From assembly GCA_016350165.1 (NCBI GenBank), contig CP066225.1, positions 1,240,001-1,304,000 on the forward strand: 64,000 bases of DNA, in the 5' to 3' direction. Both the position numbers and the translations under genes were made by a program. A model generated the notes under the pieces. That model did no database searches, was not told the origin of the DNA, and saw only the letters and a program-made list of their open reading frames with translations. The first letter of the stretch is position 1, and each line of letters opens with the position of its first letter. Positions 2,554 through 7,733 of the stretch are shown here, in pieces. This stretch comes from Planctomycetota bacterium (lineage in GTDB: Bacteria > Planctomycetota > Phycisphaerae > Phycisphaerales > Phycisphaeraceae).

Positions 2554-2775
2554 ATGATACTTTCAGACCGCTGCCACGCAATTCATATCCGACGCCCAAC
2601 ACGGAGACATCATCATTTCACCACCATTCTCATGATCTCACTCACCTCTTTTCTTCTCACACCACTCTTACACGCAACCACCAAACAGGACATCCTCAAC
2701 CAATCCGTCGCTGGTACCCATGGGCGTCTCAACTACCGATACGTCGCAGCCCAAAAAACACATCGCCCATTTTAA
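2554..2775 (+). CDS. Possible small secreted protein
   Basis: A 73-codon frame whose later part has the strong C-ending codon bias of the neighbouring genes. An internal ATG at 2632 would begin MISLTSFLLTPLLHA, a short but convincing signal peptide, followed by about 32 polar residues. No recognised domain and no clear ribosome site at either start. It lies between a terminator and the leader of the first PEP-CTERM gene. It may be a genuine small exported peptide, or the remnant of a longer gene; I lean slightly against it. Confidence 0.28.
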   Translation: MILSDRCHAIHIRRPTRRHHHFTTILMISLTSFLLTPLLHATTKQDILNQSVAGTHGRLNYRYVAAQKTHRPF

Positions 2776-2815
2776 CATCACCACACCCAAAACTAATCCA
2801 CCACCTATACAGTAC

Positions 2816-2939
2816 CATTTTTTATTGCATATTCATCACGATGATTTACAATCCACATGGATCATATCAACGGGCAAAGCACTTCTGTATCTGCTCCCCT
2901 TAACAATATCAATCGCCTATGTTTCTTGGAGGGCAATCC
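2816..2939 (+). promoter_or_regulatory. Conserved leader of PEP-CTERM gene, copy A
   Basis: This stretch matches 5146-5268 almost base for base from CATTTTTTATTGCATAT to the start codon. Best conserved are TCAACGGGCAA, GCACTTCTGT-TCTGC and CAATATCAATCGCCTATG, ending in a GGAGGGC ribosome site. GGG-CAA-AGCA can pair with TGCT-CCCC around CTTCTGTATC; copy B keeps the pairing with changed bases. It is either a cis-acting RNA in the 5' UTR or a promoter/UTR carried along by duplication. It matches no riboswitch class I know; GGGCAAA recalls c-di-GMP-I but the second conserved strand is missing. Confidence 0.6.
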
Positions 2940-3719
2940 ATGTCACAACTACTTAAACGCGCTCAAAATATCGCCGCATCATCCGCGCTCGCAACTACAG
3001 CACTCACCATCGCACCCATCGACGTCGCATCCGCCAGCGTCGACCCCGGCTTCACACTCACTGAAACTAAAGCCATCATGGGTTCATCCGGCGGCAGCGC
3101 AACACATGAAACTTTCCCTTCCAACACAATGTCGCTCACATCCTTAACACCAAACACTGCATCAATCACAGCCAACACCACAATCTCACCTACGTACGAA
3201 CAATCCACTCAGCCAGCATTTTCATGGAATGGTAATTTCCACGGCACCATCAATGAGGGCGATCTACTCACGATGGATTTCAATTTCAACGTCATCACCA
3301 GCACCGCCAACGAAGCCGACACGCTCATCATCTACGTCGGAATCACTGATGCAAATCAATTTCCCATTTACTTGGATCCCAACAAAACACTCAGTACATC
3401 CGTCTCTCCAGATAGCTATATTTACGCTTCATCAGTTGAAACAATTGATGACAAAAAAATTCACAACTTCAAGATCGATACGCCCATCTCAAAAGCAATC
3501 ACAGCCTTAAACAATAACCCAGCAACCCAATGGGGGCCTGATCTTAAATGGTATGCAAGCTTCTACTTCACCTCCGGCATCGACAAACAATCACCCAACA
3601 TCACACTGGACATCCCCGTCAACGGCTTCCGCATTGGTATCAACGACATCCCCGAACCATCATCTATCCTACTATTAGGCTCCGCAGGCCTTCTACTCCT
3701 AAGACGCAAACACGCATAA
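2940..3719 (+). CDS. PEP-CTERM exported protein, copy A
   Basis: A 259-residue protein with an N-terminal signal peptide (MSQLLKRAQ... ending in ASASV near residue 34), a Ser/Thr/Asn-rich beta-type middle domain, and a C-terminal PEP-CTERM signal: IPEPSSILLLGSAGLLLLRRKHA. The PEP motif, hydrophobic helix and Arg/Lys tail direct sorting by an exosortase, known for surface and biofilm-matrix proteins. No exosortase gene is in the window. The ATG at 2940 is chosen because GGAGGG precedes it by 6 nt; an in-frame ATG 21 nt upstream would overlap that site. Paralogue of 5269-6081: both share ASAGFTL-like mature starts, W-G-x-G-x-EGD-L, and F-x-GIN-IPEP. The GT4 gene at 3785 follows after a terminator. 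Confidence 0.9.
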   Translation: MSQLLKRAQNIAASSALATTALTIAPIDVASASVDPGFTLTETKAIMGSSGGSATHETFPSNTMSLTSLTPNTASITANTTISPTYEQSTQPAFSWNGNFHGTINEGDLLTMDFNFNVITSTANEADTLIIYVGITDANQFPIYLDPNKTLSTSVSPDSYIYASSVETIDDKKIHNFKIDTPISKAITALNNNPATQWGPDLKWYASFYFTSGIDKQSPNITLDIPVNGFRIGINDIPEPSSILLLGSAGLLLLRRKHA

Positions 3720-3744
3720 ACCAAACCCAAAACAAAACACAAAA

Positions 3745-3771
3745 AGTCTACCACAACAGGTAGGCTTTTTT
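3745..3771 (+). terminator. Rho-independent terminator
   Basis: Stem AGTCTACC/GGTAGGCT (one G-T pair) with loop ACAACA and six T. It separates the PEP-CTERM gene from the GT4 gene, so the latter may be expressed by read-through or by its own promoter; the next start codon is only 13 bases further on. Confidence 0.85.
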
Positions 3772-3784
3772 ATAATCAATCATC

Positions 3785-5005
3785 ATGAGCAAACGAATCC
3801 TTCTCATACTACCCCAAACCAGTTTCGACTTCGCAAGCGGAGCCGCGCTCAGCGCTCGCATCCTCGCCGAAACACTCGCCAACAATCATTACCAAGTCAC
3901 CATCCTCTGCCCCACCGCCAACGAAAGCGACACTCAAAACGATCAGCATCAAAAAACGCTCGATCAATTCAACATCACACCAAACCAATATACCCTACAA
4001 AACCAGACCATTTACAACTTCAATCACAAGAACATCGAGCATCACATTCTCCACGCACAAGGCTCACCCACCACCTGGCTCGACAACAACCAAGCCGCCG
4101 ACACATTCGAACAACTCATTCAACAACAACTTCAATCATTCAACCCTCACCTCGTCTTCACCTACGGCGGCGCACACCGTTCCCACAACTGGATCAACCT
4201 CATCAAGCAATCAAACGCATCCCTCGCCTTGCTCATCTACAACTACGCCTACAGCAAAAGCCATCAATACCTCCACGCCGCCGACCTCGTCATCGTTCCC
4301 TCCCAGCACACCGCCAACTACTACCTCCAAACAACCAACACACACTGCGTCGCAATCCCAAGCCCCGTCTTCCCCGAGGTAAGCCTCGCCCCCGAACCAC
4401 GCGACCCCGTCTTCCTCACCATGATCAATCCCTCCATCGAAAAAGGGCTTCACTTCGCCACACAACTCGCTCATCAACTCGCCACCCAACGTCCCGACAT
4501 CCCCATGCTTTTCGTCGAAGGGCGTGGTTCAACAGGCCATCTCCTCGCCTCCGCCAAAGAAGCAAACATTGATCTCACCAAACATCCATCCATCATGATC
4601 GCTCAGCAAACCCACAACATCCGAGAAGTCTATCGCATCTCTCGCACCATCATCATGCCTTCAATCTTCAACGAATCCTATGGCCGAGTCGCCGCTGAAG
4701 CACTCATCAATTCAATCCCCATCATCGCATCCGACCGAGGCGCCCTCCCCGAAATCATCGCCGACAACGGGTTCGTTCTCCCCTTCCCTCCTCACATCAA
4801 CCTCAACCTCACCAAACCCGTCTCCCCAGAAGACGTCCAACCCTGGCTCGACCTCATCATCAAACTCACCGACGACCAAACTTTCTACACCCAAGCCGCC
4901 CAAAACGCCAAAGCCGCAACCCCTCGCTTCTCCAACCAAGCTTTCACCCAAAAGCTCCTCACCAGCATCAACCACCTCACAAACCAAACAACGCCTTCCA
5001 CCTAA
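3785..5005 (+). CDS. GT4-family glycosyltransferase, copy A
   Basis: A 406-residue cytosolic retaining glycosyltransferase of the GT-B fold. The N-terminal lobe starts RILLILPQTSFDFASGAA with the Gly-rich acceptor-side loop typical of GT4; the C-terminal lobe has the E-x7-E motif ESYGRVAAE followed by IIASDRGALPEI for nucleotide-sugar binding. It transfers a sugar from an NDP- or polyprenyl-type donor; the sugar cannot be told from sequence. It is a close paralogue, of identical length, of 6219-7439, and both sit directly after a PEP-CTERM gene. The link suggests glycosylation of the exported partner or synthesis of a glycan it binds; this is inference. The end of the gene (residues ~355-395, WLDLIIKLTDDQ-FYTQA) is nearly unchanged between copies. 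Confidence 0.9.
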   Translation: MSKRILLILPQTSFDFASGAALSARILAETLANNHYQVTILCPTANESDTQNDQHQKTLDQFNITPNQYTLQNQTIYNFNHKNIEHHILHAQGSPTTWLDNNQAADTFEQLIQQQLQSFNPHLVFTYGGAHRSHNWINLIKQSNASLALLIYNYAYSKSHQYLHAADLVIVPSQHTANYYLQTTNTHCVAIPSPVFPEVSLAPEPRDPVFLTMINPSIEKGLHFATQLAHQLATQRPDIPMLFVEGRGSTGHLLASAKEANIDLTKHPSIMIAQQTHNIREVYRISRTIIMPSIFNESYGRVAAEALINSIPIIASDRGALPEIIADNGFVLPFPPHINLNLTKPVSPEDVQPWLDLIIKLTDDQTFYTQAAQNAKAATPRFSNQAFTQKLLTSINHLTNQTTPST

Positions 5006-5145
5006 CCAACATTTAAATACTTCACATCTCCCCTACAGATTACCCTCTTCCTCATTCACACTAAATTCCTGCTCATTTGCCCGTAACAATCTTACCTATT
5101 CCAACATCACCCCAAACCCATACCAACACACATCGCAAACAACCT

Positions 5146-5268
5146 CATTTTTTATTGCATATCCATCACCATGACATAAAATTCACTTGGATCTTTTCAA
5201 CGGGCAAGCACTTCTGTTTCTGCACCCATATCAATATCAATCGCCTATGTTTTCCAGGAGGGCTATCT
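5146..5268 (+). promoter_or_regulatory. Conserved leader of PEP-CTERM gene, copy B
   Basis: Second copy of the leader at 2816-2939. From CATTTTTTATTGCATAT to the ATG it is 123 nt against 124 nt in copy A. It keeps TCAACGGGCAA, GCACTTCTGT, TCTGC, CAATATCAATCGCCTATG and AGGAGGGC. The putative stem is GGG-CAA-GCA...TGC-A-CCC, one pair shorter than in copy A but still able to form. The unit ends in a strong ribosome site 5 nt from the start codon. Confidence 0.6.
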
Positions 5269-6081
5269 ATGCCAACGACAACGCTCATAGAAAAAGCGAA
5301 ACAGCTTGTAAACAAAAAAACGATCGCAGCAACGGCTATCGCCATTACGCCACTCGCAACTGCCGCTCCAGACGCAAACGCTTCAGCTGGATTTACACTC
5401 GATGACGCTTTCTATACCGGAACATATTCCGGCGGCGAATTCTTTGATGATATCTATCGTGACTCAATGGATGCATCAGCTACCAACGACAACGCCATCG
5501 CATTCACATGCAACACTACACTTAATGAAGATTTCGATTCACCCATATATGTTTGGCGAGGCAAATACAACGGATCCGTATCAGAAGGCGATCAACTTGT
5601 TTTTGATTTAAGCTTCACAATAAAAGCGCCTAAAGACGCATCCGTAGGAACACCCAACTTCCAATTCCTGCTCTCTGATGCAGATGGGTTCTCCTCGGAA
5701 TCCGCAACAACGAATCCAGCGACAAGCCTTAACACCTATTTTAATATCGGCGTTTTCAATTGGTACCATTCTTTTGCCCACAACGAAACGACAACAGGCG
5801 ACATTACAACCCACACATACCACATTAAACAAAACAAAATTCTCACGAAAGATATCGAAGGTTTTGGTGACGACAACCCCGGACAATGGGATTCAGGCCT
5901 TATATGGCAACTAAAATTATCTCATAACTCAATTATGAGCTTCCTGCCAGACAAATACTACGAAATGTCCATCCAGCCCGAATCCTTCAAAGTTGGCATC
6001 AACGCCATCCCCGAACCCGCATCTATCTCACTATTAGGCATCGCAGGCCTCATCCTCACCACACACAGGCGCCGCAAATAA
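5269..6081 (+). CDS. PEP-CTERM exported protein, copy B
   Basis: A 270-residue paralogue of the protein at 2940-3719. Signal peptide up to about residue 40 (KTIAATAIAITPLATAA...ANASA), then a domain starting AGFTLDDAF, a middle W-RGKYNGSVSEGDQLVFDLSF block that matches copy A, and the PEP-CTERM tail IPEPASISLLGIAGLILTTHRRRK. The ATG at 5269 follows AGGAGGGC; the frame is open upstream to 5077 but that stretch is the conserved leader. The middle region has diverged strongly from copy A while the ends are kept, as expected of surface proteins under changing selection. Likely sorted by an exosortase encoded elsewhere. Ligand or structural role unknown. Confidence 0.9.
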   Translation: MPTTTLIEKAKQLVNKKTIAATAIAITPLATAAPDANASAGFTLDDAFYTGTYSGGEFFDDIYRDSMDASATNDNAIAFTCNTTLNEDFDSPIYVWRGKYNGSVSEGDQLVFDLSFTIKAPKDASVGTPNFQFLLSDADGFSSESATTNPATSLNTYFNIGVFNWYHSFAHNETTTGDITTHTYHIKQNKILTKDIEGFGDDNPGQWDSGLIWQLKLSHNSIMSFLPDKYYEMSIQPESFKVGINAIPEPASISLLGIAGLILTTHRRRK

Positions 6082-6105
6082 AACAACCAACAAACATAAA
6101 CTCAA

Positions 6106-6134
6106 ACCCATTGGCCAAAAACCAATGGGTTTTT
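6106..6134 (+). terminator. Rho-independent terminator
   Basis: Perfect 9-bp stem ACCCATTGG/CCAATGGGT, loop CCAAAAA, then five T. It follows the second PEP-CTERM gene exactly as the terminator at 3745 follows the first, but the sequences differ. Confidence 0.9.
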
Positions 6135-6196
6135 CATTCCCCACCTCCAATTCAACAGCTACAATAAACCACACAATTAACGAACAACCCAATTAC

Positions 6197-6211
6197 CTAA
6201 TCATCGATTAG
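6197..6211. repeat. CTAATCATCGATTAG palindrome
   Basis: 15-bp palindrome (CTAATCA/TGATTAG arms with one change at the centre), ending 7 bp before the start codon of the second GT4 gene. Other copies are at 7484, 32674 and 35444. Its position would let it act as an operator or as a hairpin over the ribosome-binding region. Confidence 0.6.
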
Positions 6212-6218
6212 ATAAAAC

Positions 6219-7439
6219 ATGAAACCACGCATCTTACTCCTGCTCCCACAATCACCCTTCGACAACGCAAGCGGTGCCGCTGTTTCATCACGCACCATCG
6301 CCGAAACACTCGCCGCCAACAATTTCACCGTCCAAACCCTCTGCCCAACCACCATCGAAAAACACAACCCCAAACACGATCACTACCAAGACCTCATCAA
6401 CCTCAAACTCAACCCCATCAACAAACAATACAACAATCAAACCATCTATCATTTCACACACAAAAACGTCGAACACACACTCCTAAAAACCAGCCTCTCC
6501 TCAAAAGATTGGCAAAACGATACTCACATCGCCGATACCTTCGAGCAGCTCCTCCACCAAACCCTAACCACCTTCAAACCTCACATCGTCATGACCTATG
6601 GCGGATCGCACCGTGGTCCCAATTGGCTAAACCTCATCAAACAATCACAAGCCGCACTCGTCCTCCTCATCCACAACCTAGCCTACAAAAGTGCAAACTA
6701 CTTCAACGCCGCCGACCTCATAATCGTCCCCTCTCAATTCACCGCCGACCACTACCACAACCTGCTAGGCTCAACCTGCACACCACTTCCAATACCCATC
6801 AACCCAACCACAATCATCCCCAACCAACCTCGCGACCCCATCTTCCTCACCATGATCAACCCCTCTCCCGAAAAAGGGCTTTTCTTCGCCATACACCTCG
6901 CCCACCATCTCGCCACAAAGCGCCCCGACATCCCCATACTCTTCGTCGAATCACGCGCCACCGCAGGCCACCTCCTCGCCGCAGCCAAACAACACAATAT
7001 CGACCTCACTCAACATGAATCCATCATGGTCACCCCACAAACAGACGACATCCGCGACATCTATCAAATCACACGCACCCTCATCATGCCTTCCATCATC
7101 CAGGAAACCGGAGGCCGCGTCGCCGCCGAAGCACTCATCAACGCCATTCCCACCATCACCTCCGACCGAGGCGCCCTCCCCGAAACCGTCTCAACCCACG
7201 GCTTCCCCCTCCCCCTCCCCAAAACCCTCAACATGCAAAACCTGGACGCCCCCATCACCCCCCAAGACACTAACCAATGGTTAGACCTGATCATCAAACT
7301 CACCGACGATCAAGCCTTCTACACGCAAGCCTCCCAAAACGCCAAAGCAGCCATCCCCCGCTTCTCTCCCGAAACCTTCACGCAAAAACTCCTTGCATGC
7401 CTCAATCCTCTCCTCATTCAAATAGCCAACCCCACCTAA
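6219..7439 (+). CDS. GT4-family glycosyltransferase, copy B
   Basis: A 406-residue paralogue of 3785-5005, aligned over its whole length. Starts RILLLLPQSPFDNASGAAVS; C-terminal lobe has E-x7-E as ETGGRVAAE and then TSDRGALPETV. Differences cluster in residues 45-75 and 205-220, acceptor-lobe loops, so acceptor choice may differ between copies while the donor site is kept (inference). The preceding 137 bp hold the terminator of the PEP-CTERM gene and a palindrome, and there is no good Shine-Dalgarno sequence (TAAAAC before ATG). The gene is very C-rich on the coding strand, like the whole 3-7.5 kb block. Confidence 0.9.
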   Translation: MKPRILLLLPQSPFDNASGAAVSSRTIAETLAANNFTVQTLCPTTIEKHNPKHDHYQDLINLKLNPINKQYNNQTIYHFTHKNVEHTLLKTSLSSKDWQNDTHIADTFEQLLHQTLTTFKPHIVMTYGGSHRGPNWLNLIKQSQAALVLLIHNLAYKSANYFNAADLIIVPSQFTADHYHNLLGSTCTPLPIPINPTTIIPNQPRDPIFLTMINPSPEKGLFFAIHLAHHLATKRPDIPILFVESRATAGHLLAAAKQHNIDLTQHESIMVTPQTDDIRDIYQITRTLIMPSIIQETGGRVAAEALINAIPTITSDRGALPETVSTHGFPLPLPKTLNMQNLDAPITPQDTNQWLDLIIKLTDDQAFYTQASQNAKAAIPRFSPETFTQKLLACLNPLLIQIANPT

Positions 7440-7498: not shown

Positions 7499-7733
7499 TC
7501 AATCAATCACTCCGTACATCCGCTCACCCCAAACATTACACCACCACACCATACCTTTCGCCGCAACTAAAACCTTCTCAACATCCCATCACCATCAAAC
7601 AAACAACCTCAAAACTATGTAAAATCAGCATATATCGCCCAAAAACTGCGATATCCCGCCCACCTGATGCATACACTGCTCCATGGGCAACCCAACAGAA
7701 TAAACAACCTAAATTTAGGTATAGGATAGACTT

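Follow-up and report, generated by a model that had tools for sequence, protein, structure and literature searches.

A conserved leader shared by two neighbouring PEP-CTERM genes of a marine planctomycete: a putative duplicated promoter and 5' untranslated region

Introduction

Based on our comparisons, we propose that the leader preceding two neighbouring PEP-CTERM genes is a duplicated promoter and 5' untranslated region (5' UTR), kept by selection for the common control of two gene cassettes; we put the probability of this reading at roughly 0.6. It looks as though two adjacent surface-protein genes of a marine bacterium share a control region, consisting of a promoter and the start of the message rather than of a new riboswitch family. 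The promoter, the transcription start, the common regulation and the selection that keeps the copies alike are all putative. The leader pair marks a control region that is short and open to testing, in a strain that is in culture and has strand-specific RNA-seq reported as deposited (PRJNA768630, PRJNA694614; PMC10945688); the pair does not speak for a new class of RNA.

Results

Two consecutive cassettes, each with its leader

The window, by which we mean the whole 64,000-nucleotide stretch that was analysed (positions 1,240,001 to 1,304,000 of CP066225.1), lies on a single contig of 5,234,020 bases. Two consecutive cassettes each run from leader to PEP-CTERM gene to GT4 glycosyltransferase gene, and the leader occupies the same position in both. 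The features are as follows, in window coordinates.

2605..2757, + strand: remaining 5' end of a gene found whole in the congener G001 (64% identity by tblastn across 53 positions, E 6e-13)
2816..2939, + strand: leader copy 1, putative promoter and 5' UTR (104-105/122 aligned bases identical to copy 2)
2825..2852, + strand: -35/-10-like pair TTGCAT-N16-TACAAT, copy 1 (inspection and regular expression)
2872..2899, + strand: drawn hairpin GGG/CCC + GCA/TGC, copy 1 (consensus fold, without covariation)
2928..2933, + strand: ribosome-binding site GGAGGG, copy 1 (sequence)
2940..3719, + strand: PEP-CTERM gene 1 (TIGR02595 above cut-off; PF07589 19.8 bits, slightly below cut-off)
3785..5005, + strand: GT4 glycosyltransferase gene 1 (PF00534, E 9.8e-16)
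5146..5268, + strand: leader copy 2 (blastn E 9.6e-31 against copy 1)
5155..5182, + strand: -35/-10-like pair TTGCAT-N16-TAAAAT, copy 2 (inspection and regular expression)
5202..5227, + strand: drawn hairpin GGG/CCC + GCA/TGC, copy 2 (consensus fold; minimum-energy fold differs)
5257..5262, + strand: ribosome-binding site GGAGGG, copy 2 (sequence)
5269..6081, + strand: PEP-CTERM gene 2 (TIGR02595 above cut-off)
6219..7439, + strand: GT4 glycosyltransferase gene 2 (PF00534, E 3.5e-12)

Of additional note, a terminator-like hairpin lies 3' of each PEP-CTERM gene; the scan assigns both to the minus strand and counts 5 such hairpins in all, close to the mean of 3.3 for shuffled sequence.

The leader is more alike than the genes that follow it

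One aligner gives 105 identical bases out of 122 aligned between 2816-2939 and 5146-5268, and a MAFFT-style alignment gives 104 identical columns out of 125, 3 of which are gaps (104/122 aligned bases). The preliminary description had reported that the copies match up to the start codon at these coordinates, and this is borne out; the conserved cores that it quoted are likewise present in both. Because the first aligner is permissive, giving also 77/102 for the 120 bases upstream (with 36 gap columns) and 55/61 for the region between PEP-CTERM and GT4 genes (with 80 gap columns), we trust only its low-gap leader figure. When copy 2 was compared by blastn with its own whole genome, copy 1 was found at 84% identity and the next match had an E of 1.06. 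In a 60-column identity scan, segments in the leader score 0.72-0.85 and those upstream of 2768 score 0.32-0.52, and within the PEP-CTERM gene the values quickly drop to 0.42-0.50; such high identity is not unique to the leader, with conserved GT4 stretches at 0.80-0.87 and the PEP-CTERM tail at 0.77. The similarity begins just 5' of the TTGCAT-N16-TANAAT pair and stops at the start codon, the promoter half (34/40 columns identical) and the UTR half (70/85 columns) being similarly conserved.

The genes have diverged further. The GT4 proteins share 233 of 405 residues and their genes 80 of 121 four-fold degenerate sites; for the PEP-CTERM pair the figures are 73 of 251 residues (29%) and 20 of 40 sites. 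Leader identity exceeds that of the four-fold sites in both cases (Fisher p 0.0003 against GT4 and 1.4e-5 against PEP-CTERM), so that the leader is indeed better conserved than the coding sequences behind it. A very recent duplication, with equal divergence in the GT4 genes, had been named as an explanation that would remove the need for function; the GT4 four-fold sites (80/121) fall short of the leader (105/122), and we reject an equal-age duplication as the cause of the likeness, since leader identity exceeds the silent sites of both GT4 and PEP-CTERM genes. We also reject the leader as a coding sequence or leader peptide: single-base indels shift the frames of the copies relative to each other, and the overlapping open frames differ. 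Because the leader is conserved above the silent sites of both genes and is bounded by a promoter-like pair and a start codon, the sequence supports a cis-regulatory role, as was originally suggested.

Folding of the leader

The preliminary description went further and proposed a structured, riboswitch-like RNA; for this we find no support. The 5' UTR folds with z-scores of -0.28 (copy 1) and +1.19 (copy 2), 73/200 and 178/200 shuffles being at least as stable, and the full leaders, promoter part included, show no advantage over shuffles either (z +0.60 and +1.75). Taken by themselves, the hairpin pieces are mildly favourable, with z-scores of -1.19 and -0.74 (22/200 and 48/200 shuffles as stable). 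None of the 14 pairs in the consensus fold of these two sequences is changed on both sides. When a start-codon helix is added, 33 of 34 cells pair in the resulting 17-pair drawing, as against 37-50% of cells when the partner is slid out of the drawn register, the structure having been derived from the same two sequences; again, 0/17 pairs change on both sides. This one longer helix has 8 bp in copy 1, where it buries the start codon; in copy 2 one of its pairs is broken and another is a G-U. The hairpin formed by GGG/CCC and GCA/TGC can be drawn in both copies as claimed, but the minimum-energy fold of copy 2 is a different one. That all six of its pairs are unchanged is unremarkable at 86% identity, with about one chance in six by our own estimate. 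Rfam gives 0 matches at gathering score over the whole window and, for 2700-5400 at E up to 10, six weak unrelated matches that do not include c-di-GMP-I, in agreement with the preliminary description, which could name no matching riboswitch class and had considered c-di-GMP-I but found its second strand lacking.

Search for further copies

The check suggested at the outset was a covariance model together with compensatory changes. In 121 genomes the model finds only its own two copies below E 0.1, with one further match at E 0.70, and no pair is changed on both sides. With blastn against 201 genomes, we recovered the own copies and, in 8/200 relatives, fragments of 17-43 bases (E 7e-4 to 0.095), with no further leader; in those eight fragment loci, a loose search for the cores found nothing arranged like the leader. 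Three of the loci (L022, L025 and L028) have a variant of ACGGGCAA with one mismatch within or close to the blastn match, and the other cores do not follow; in L022, the one locus of the eight that was read, the match sits within a 499-codon frame on the opposite strand. A 21-base pattern scan of genome and viral contig collections, which may lack close relatives of the window's genome, gave 0 matches. Further copies in related genomes, the absence of which was to count against a functional RNA, were thus found neither by blastn (201 genomes), nor by the covariance model (121 genomes), nor by the pattern scan. Among the papers listed on PEP-CTERM upstream regions, motifs, promoters, riboswitches and CsrA, none was seen to name this leader.

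Other PEP-CTERM genes of the same genome

The window's genome has at least 150 TIGR02595 matches above cut-off, an unusually large PEP-CTERM set. TIGR02595 scoring covered 150 of 256 first-look candidates, and 2 of the 150 matches listed are the window genes. The upstream regions of 109 of the other 148 were compared singly with the leaders, and the 39 others were covered by whole-genome blastn and the model only. The highest-scoring comparison, that of L128 with copy 1, reaches 35, just above the maximum of 34 in 545 first-order resampled controls; the next scores are 30 and 29, and the 99th percentile of the controls is 29. We read the L128 match as chance because it is AT-rich, gapped and limited to the promoter half, and because copy 2 aligns elsewhere in L128. 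With filters off, the covariance model finds nothing below E 1.1 in 84 loci, 80 of which are PEP-CTERM upstream regions. The idea that the leader is a motif common to this genome's PEP-CTERM genes is set aside, on judgement rather than by a formal test: among the 109 compared regions only L128, read as chance, scores above the control maximum. In an all-against-all blastn of 111 upstream regions, 17 pairs stand at E 1e-3; the two leaders rank second with 132 bits, the top pair has 845 bits with similarity over most of the region, and three of the 17 pairs are the PEP-CTERM ends of preceding genes.

Other upstream regions carry sequences of their own. Another leader (L097 1380-1455 and L081 1358-1435) lies upstream of a third PEP-CTERM gene and of its counterpart in the congener G001. 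It has a helix with one compensatory pair of 16 (CUCGC/GCGAG versus CUCUC/GAGAG) and the core UUCGCCUGUG; one of its two copies folds better than shuffles (z -2.69) and the other does not (z -0.17). A pattern scan for it in the genome contig collection gave 4 matches, taken as chance from their downstream frames. Its model, run on 151 genomes, has matches with E no higher than 1 in 19 of them, two being strong (the source pair) and the next at E 0.001; no PEP-CTERM gene was recognised downstream in the 8 loci inspected. L097 and L081 resemble the two leaders of the window no more than chance would give, with 7-58% of controls scoring as high. Elsewhere, L177 shows by eye, at about 205-320 and 5' of a PEP-CTERM gene, a purine-rich stretch followed, ahead of the start codon, by a terminator-like hairpin, with no Rfam match, and the PEP-CTERM upstream regions L116 (94-152) and L163 (25-82) have a 60-base purine-rich stretch in common (77%, E 5e-5).

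Origin of the locus

In the congener G001, a 537-codon frame (L211 7337-8950) lies between a pilin-like gene and gatB; it has alpha/beta hydrolase matches and, judged by eye, a PEP-type C-terminal tail. The window retains the 5' stump of that gene at 2605-2757, and homology to G001 resumes at 7573; therefore, the cassettes stand in the place of the hydrolase gene, in a comparison of two genomes that carries no polarity. GT4 matches with E no higher than 1e-60 occur in 12/400 genomes of the order, the own genome included. When frames were checked at 12 loci of 11 other genomes, three of these loci with shorter flanks, a PEP-CTERM-like tail was found only in G026, where the gene is divergent from GT4, and in G005, where it lies 5' of GT4 on the same strand. 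The G005 protein was not detected with a model of the window's PEP-CTERM pair, and neither upstream region has the leader, the resemblance being within chance (12-90% of controls as high). Among the genomes searched, the PEP-CTERM-GT4 cassettes are specific to the window's genome. A PEP-CTERM gene adjoining a related GT4 gene is seen twice here (2940-7439) and in two other genera (G026 and G005; L062/L066 and L063/L067), a hint that the surface protein may have a glycosyltransferase dedicated to it.

Discussion

We suggest a plausible history for the two cassettes. A PEP-CTERM-GT4 cassette, including its promoter and 5' UTR, would have been duplicated in tandem; the proteins would have diverged widely afterwards, and selection would have held the control region, thereby leaving both cassettes under the same control. 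A promoter of the housekeeping type would occupy about 2816-2855, followed at 2856-2939 by an untranslated leader with the ribosome-binding site at its end. In favour of a shared promoter and UTR are the excess over silent sites, the boundaries, the same position in each cassette, the lack of a structural signal, and the restriction of the cassettes to this genome among those searched. Against it, a stricter consensus promoter scan listed neither -35/-10-like pair, and its count was below the shuffled mean. Conservation is also as high in the UTR half as in the promoter half, beyond what a plain promoter needs, which leaves room for a trans-acting regulator.

Such a regulator could be a small RNA or an RNA-binding protein such as CsrA that covers both PEP-CTERM ribosome-binding sites, the conservation then marking a binding site and not a fold; we consider this unlikely. 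The UTR is highly kept, including an unbroken 21-base block immediately 5' of the ribosome-binding site, and the window's genome has two CsrA homologues above cut-off. GGA, the CsrA motif, occurs twice in each UTR, once within the ribosome-binding site; by our own estimate, however, one additional GGA per UTR is about what chance gives. A doubtful extension of the same idea is a lineage-specific 5' UTR through which both surface proteins would be switched together after transcription, the 21-base block and the ribosome-binding site being the target of a small RNA or of CsrA. If true, it would be RNA-level control of PEP-CTERM genes outside Proteobacteria, of which we know no example; none is among the papers listed on PEP-CTERM genes with promoters, riboswitches, the Phycisphaerae, 5' UTRs or CsrA, although papers that print a prime sign in 5' UTR may have been missed.

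Gene conversion between the tandem cassettes could also keep the copies alike without function, and their adjacency would favour it. The 17-18 mismatches and 3 gap columns argue against a recent event, and the conserved tract is bounded by the promoter-like pair and the start codon, limits that conversion need not respect; we regard this explanation as quite improbable. Least credible to us is the structured RNA, whether riboswitch or thermosensor, that was first proposed. Both copies allow a hairpin of 6 pairs and, over the ribosome-binding site, a GCCU/GGGC pairing, the drawn register pairs better than slid ones (in a structure derived from the same sequences), and the hairpin pieces alone have negative z-scores; set against this, the UTR z-scores straddle zero, no pair has changed on both sides, the start-codon helix is weaker in copy 2, Rfam has no match, and beyond the two copies the model, in 121 genomes, has just the one match at E 0.70.

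The arrangement recalls some known systems. With a c-di-GMP-I riboswitch the leader shares its position in a 5' UTR and nothing else shown; it differs in that the leader region (2700-5400) has no such match in Rfam up to E 10. Haft et al. (2006; PMC1569441) describe a sigma-54/PrsR cis-regulatory site upstream of proteobacterial PEP-CTERM genes and call the control of such genes outside Proteobacteria open. As here, conserved non-coding sequence 5' of several PEP-CTERM genes of one genome is taken there as a sign of common control; unlike here, where 2 genes share the leader, 99/167 genes share that site (PMC1569441). The marks of a sigma-54/PrsR regulon are not seen: the plus strand of 2740-2942 and 5070-5271 has no GG-N10-GC, the spacing of a sigma-54 promoter (-24 GG/-12 GC), and the PrsR-like proteins of the window's genome fall under the family cut-off (TIGR02915, 6 matches, none above it, the best at 378.1 versus 502.6 bits). 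Another parallel is found in tandem paralogues that share an ordinary promoter and 5' UTR; in common with these are a duplicated control region ending at the start codon, a -35/-10-like pair and a ribosome-binding site. The leader differs in being 85-86% identical although the PEP-CTERM proteins are 29% identical; the similarity is bounded by the promoter-like pair and the start codon and stands above the coding divergence, as a shared promoter and 5' UTR would have it.
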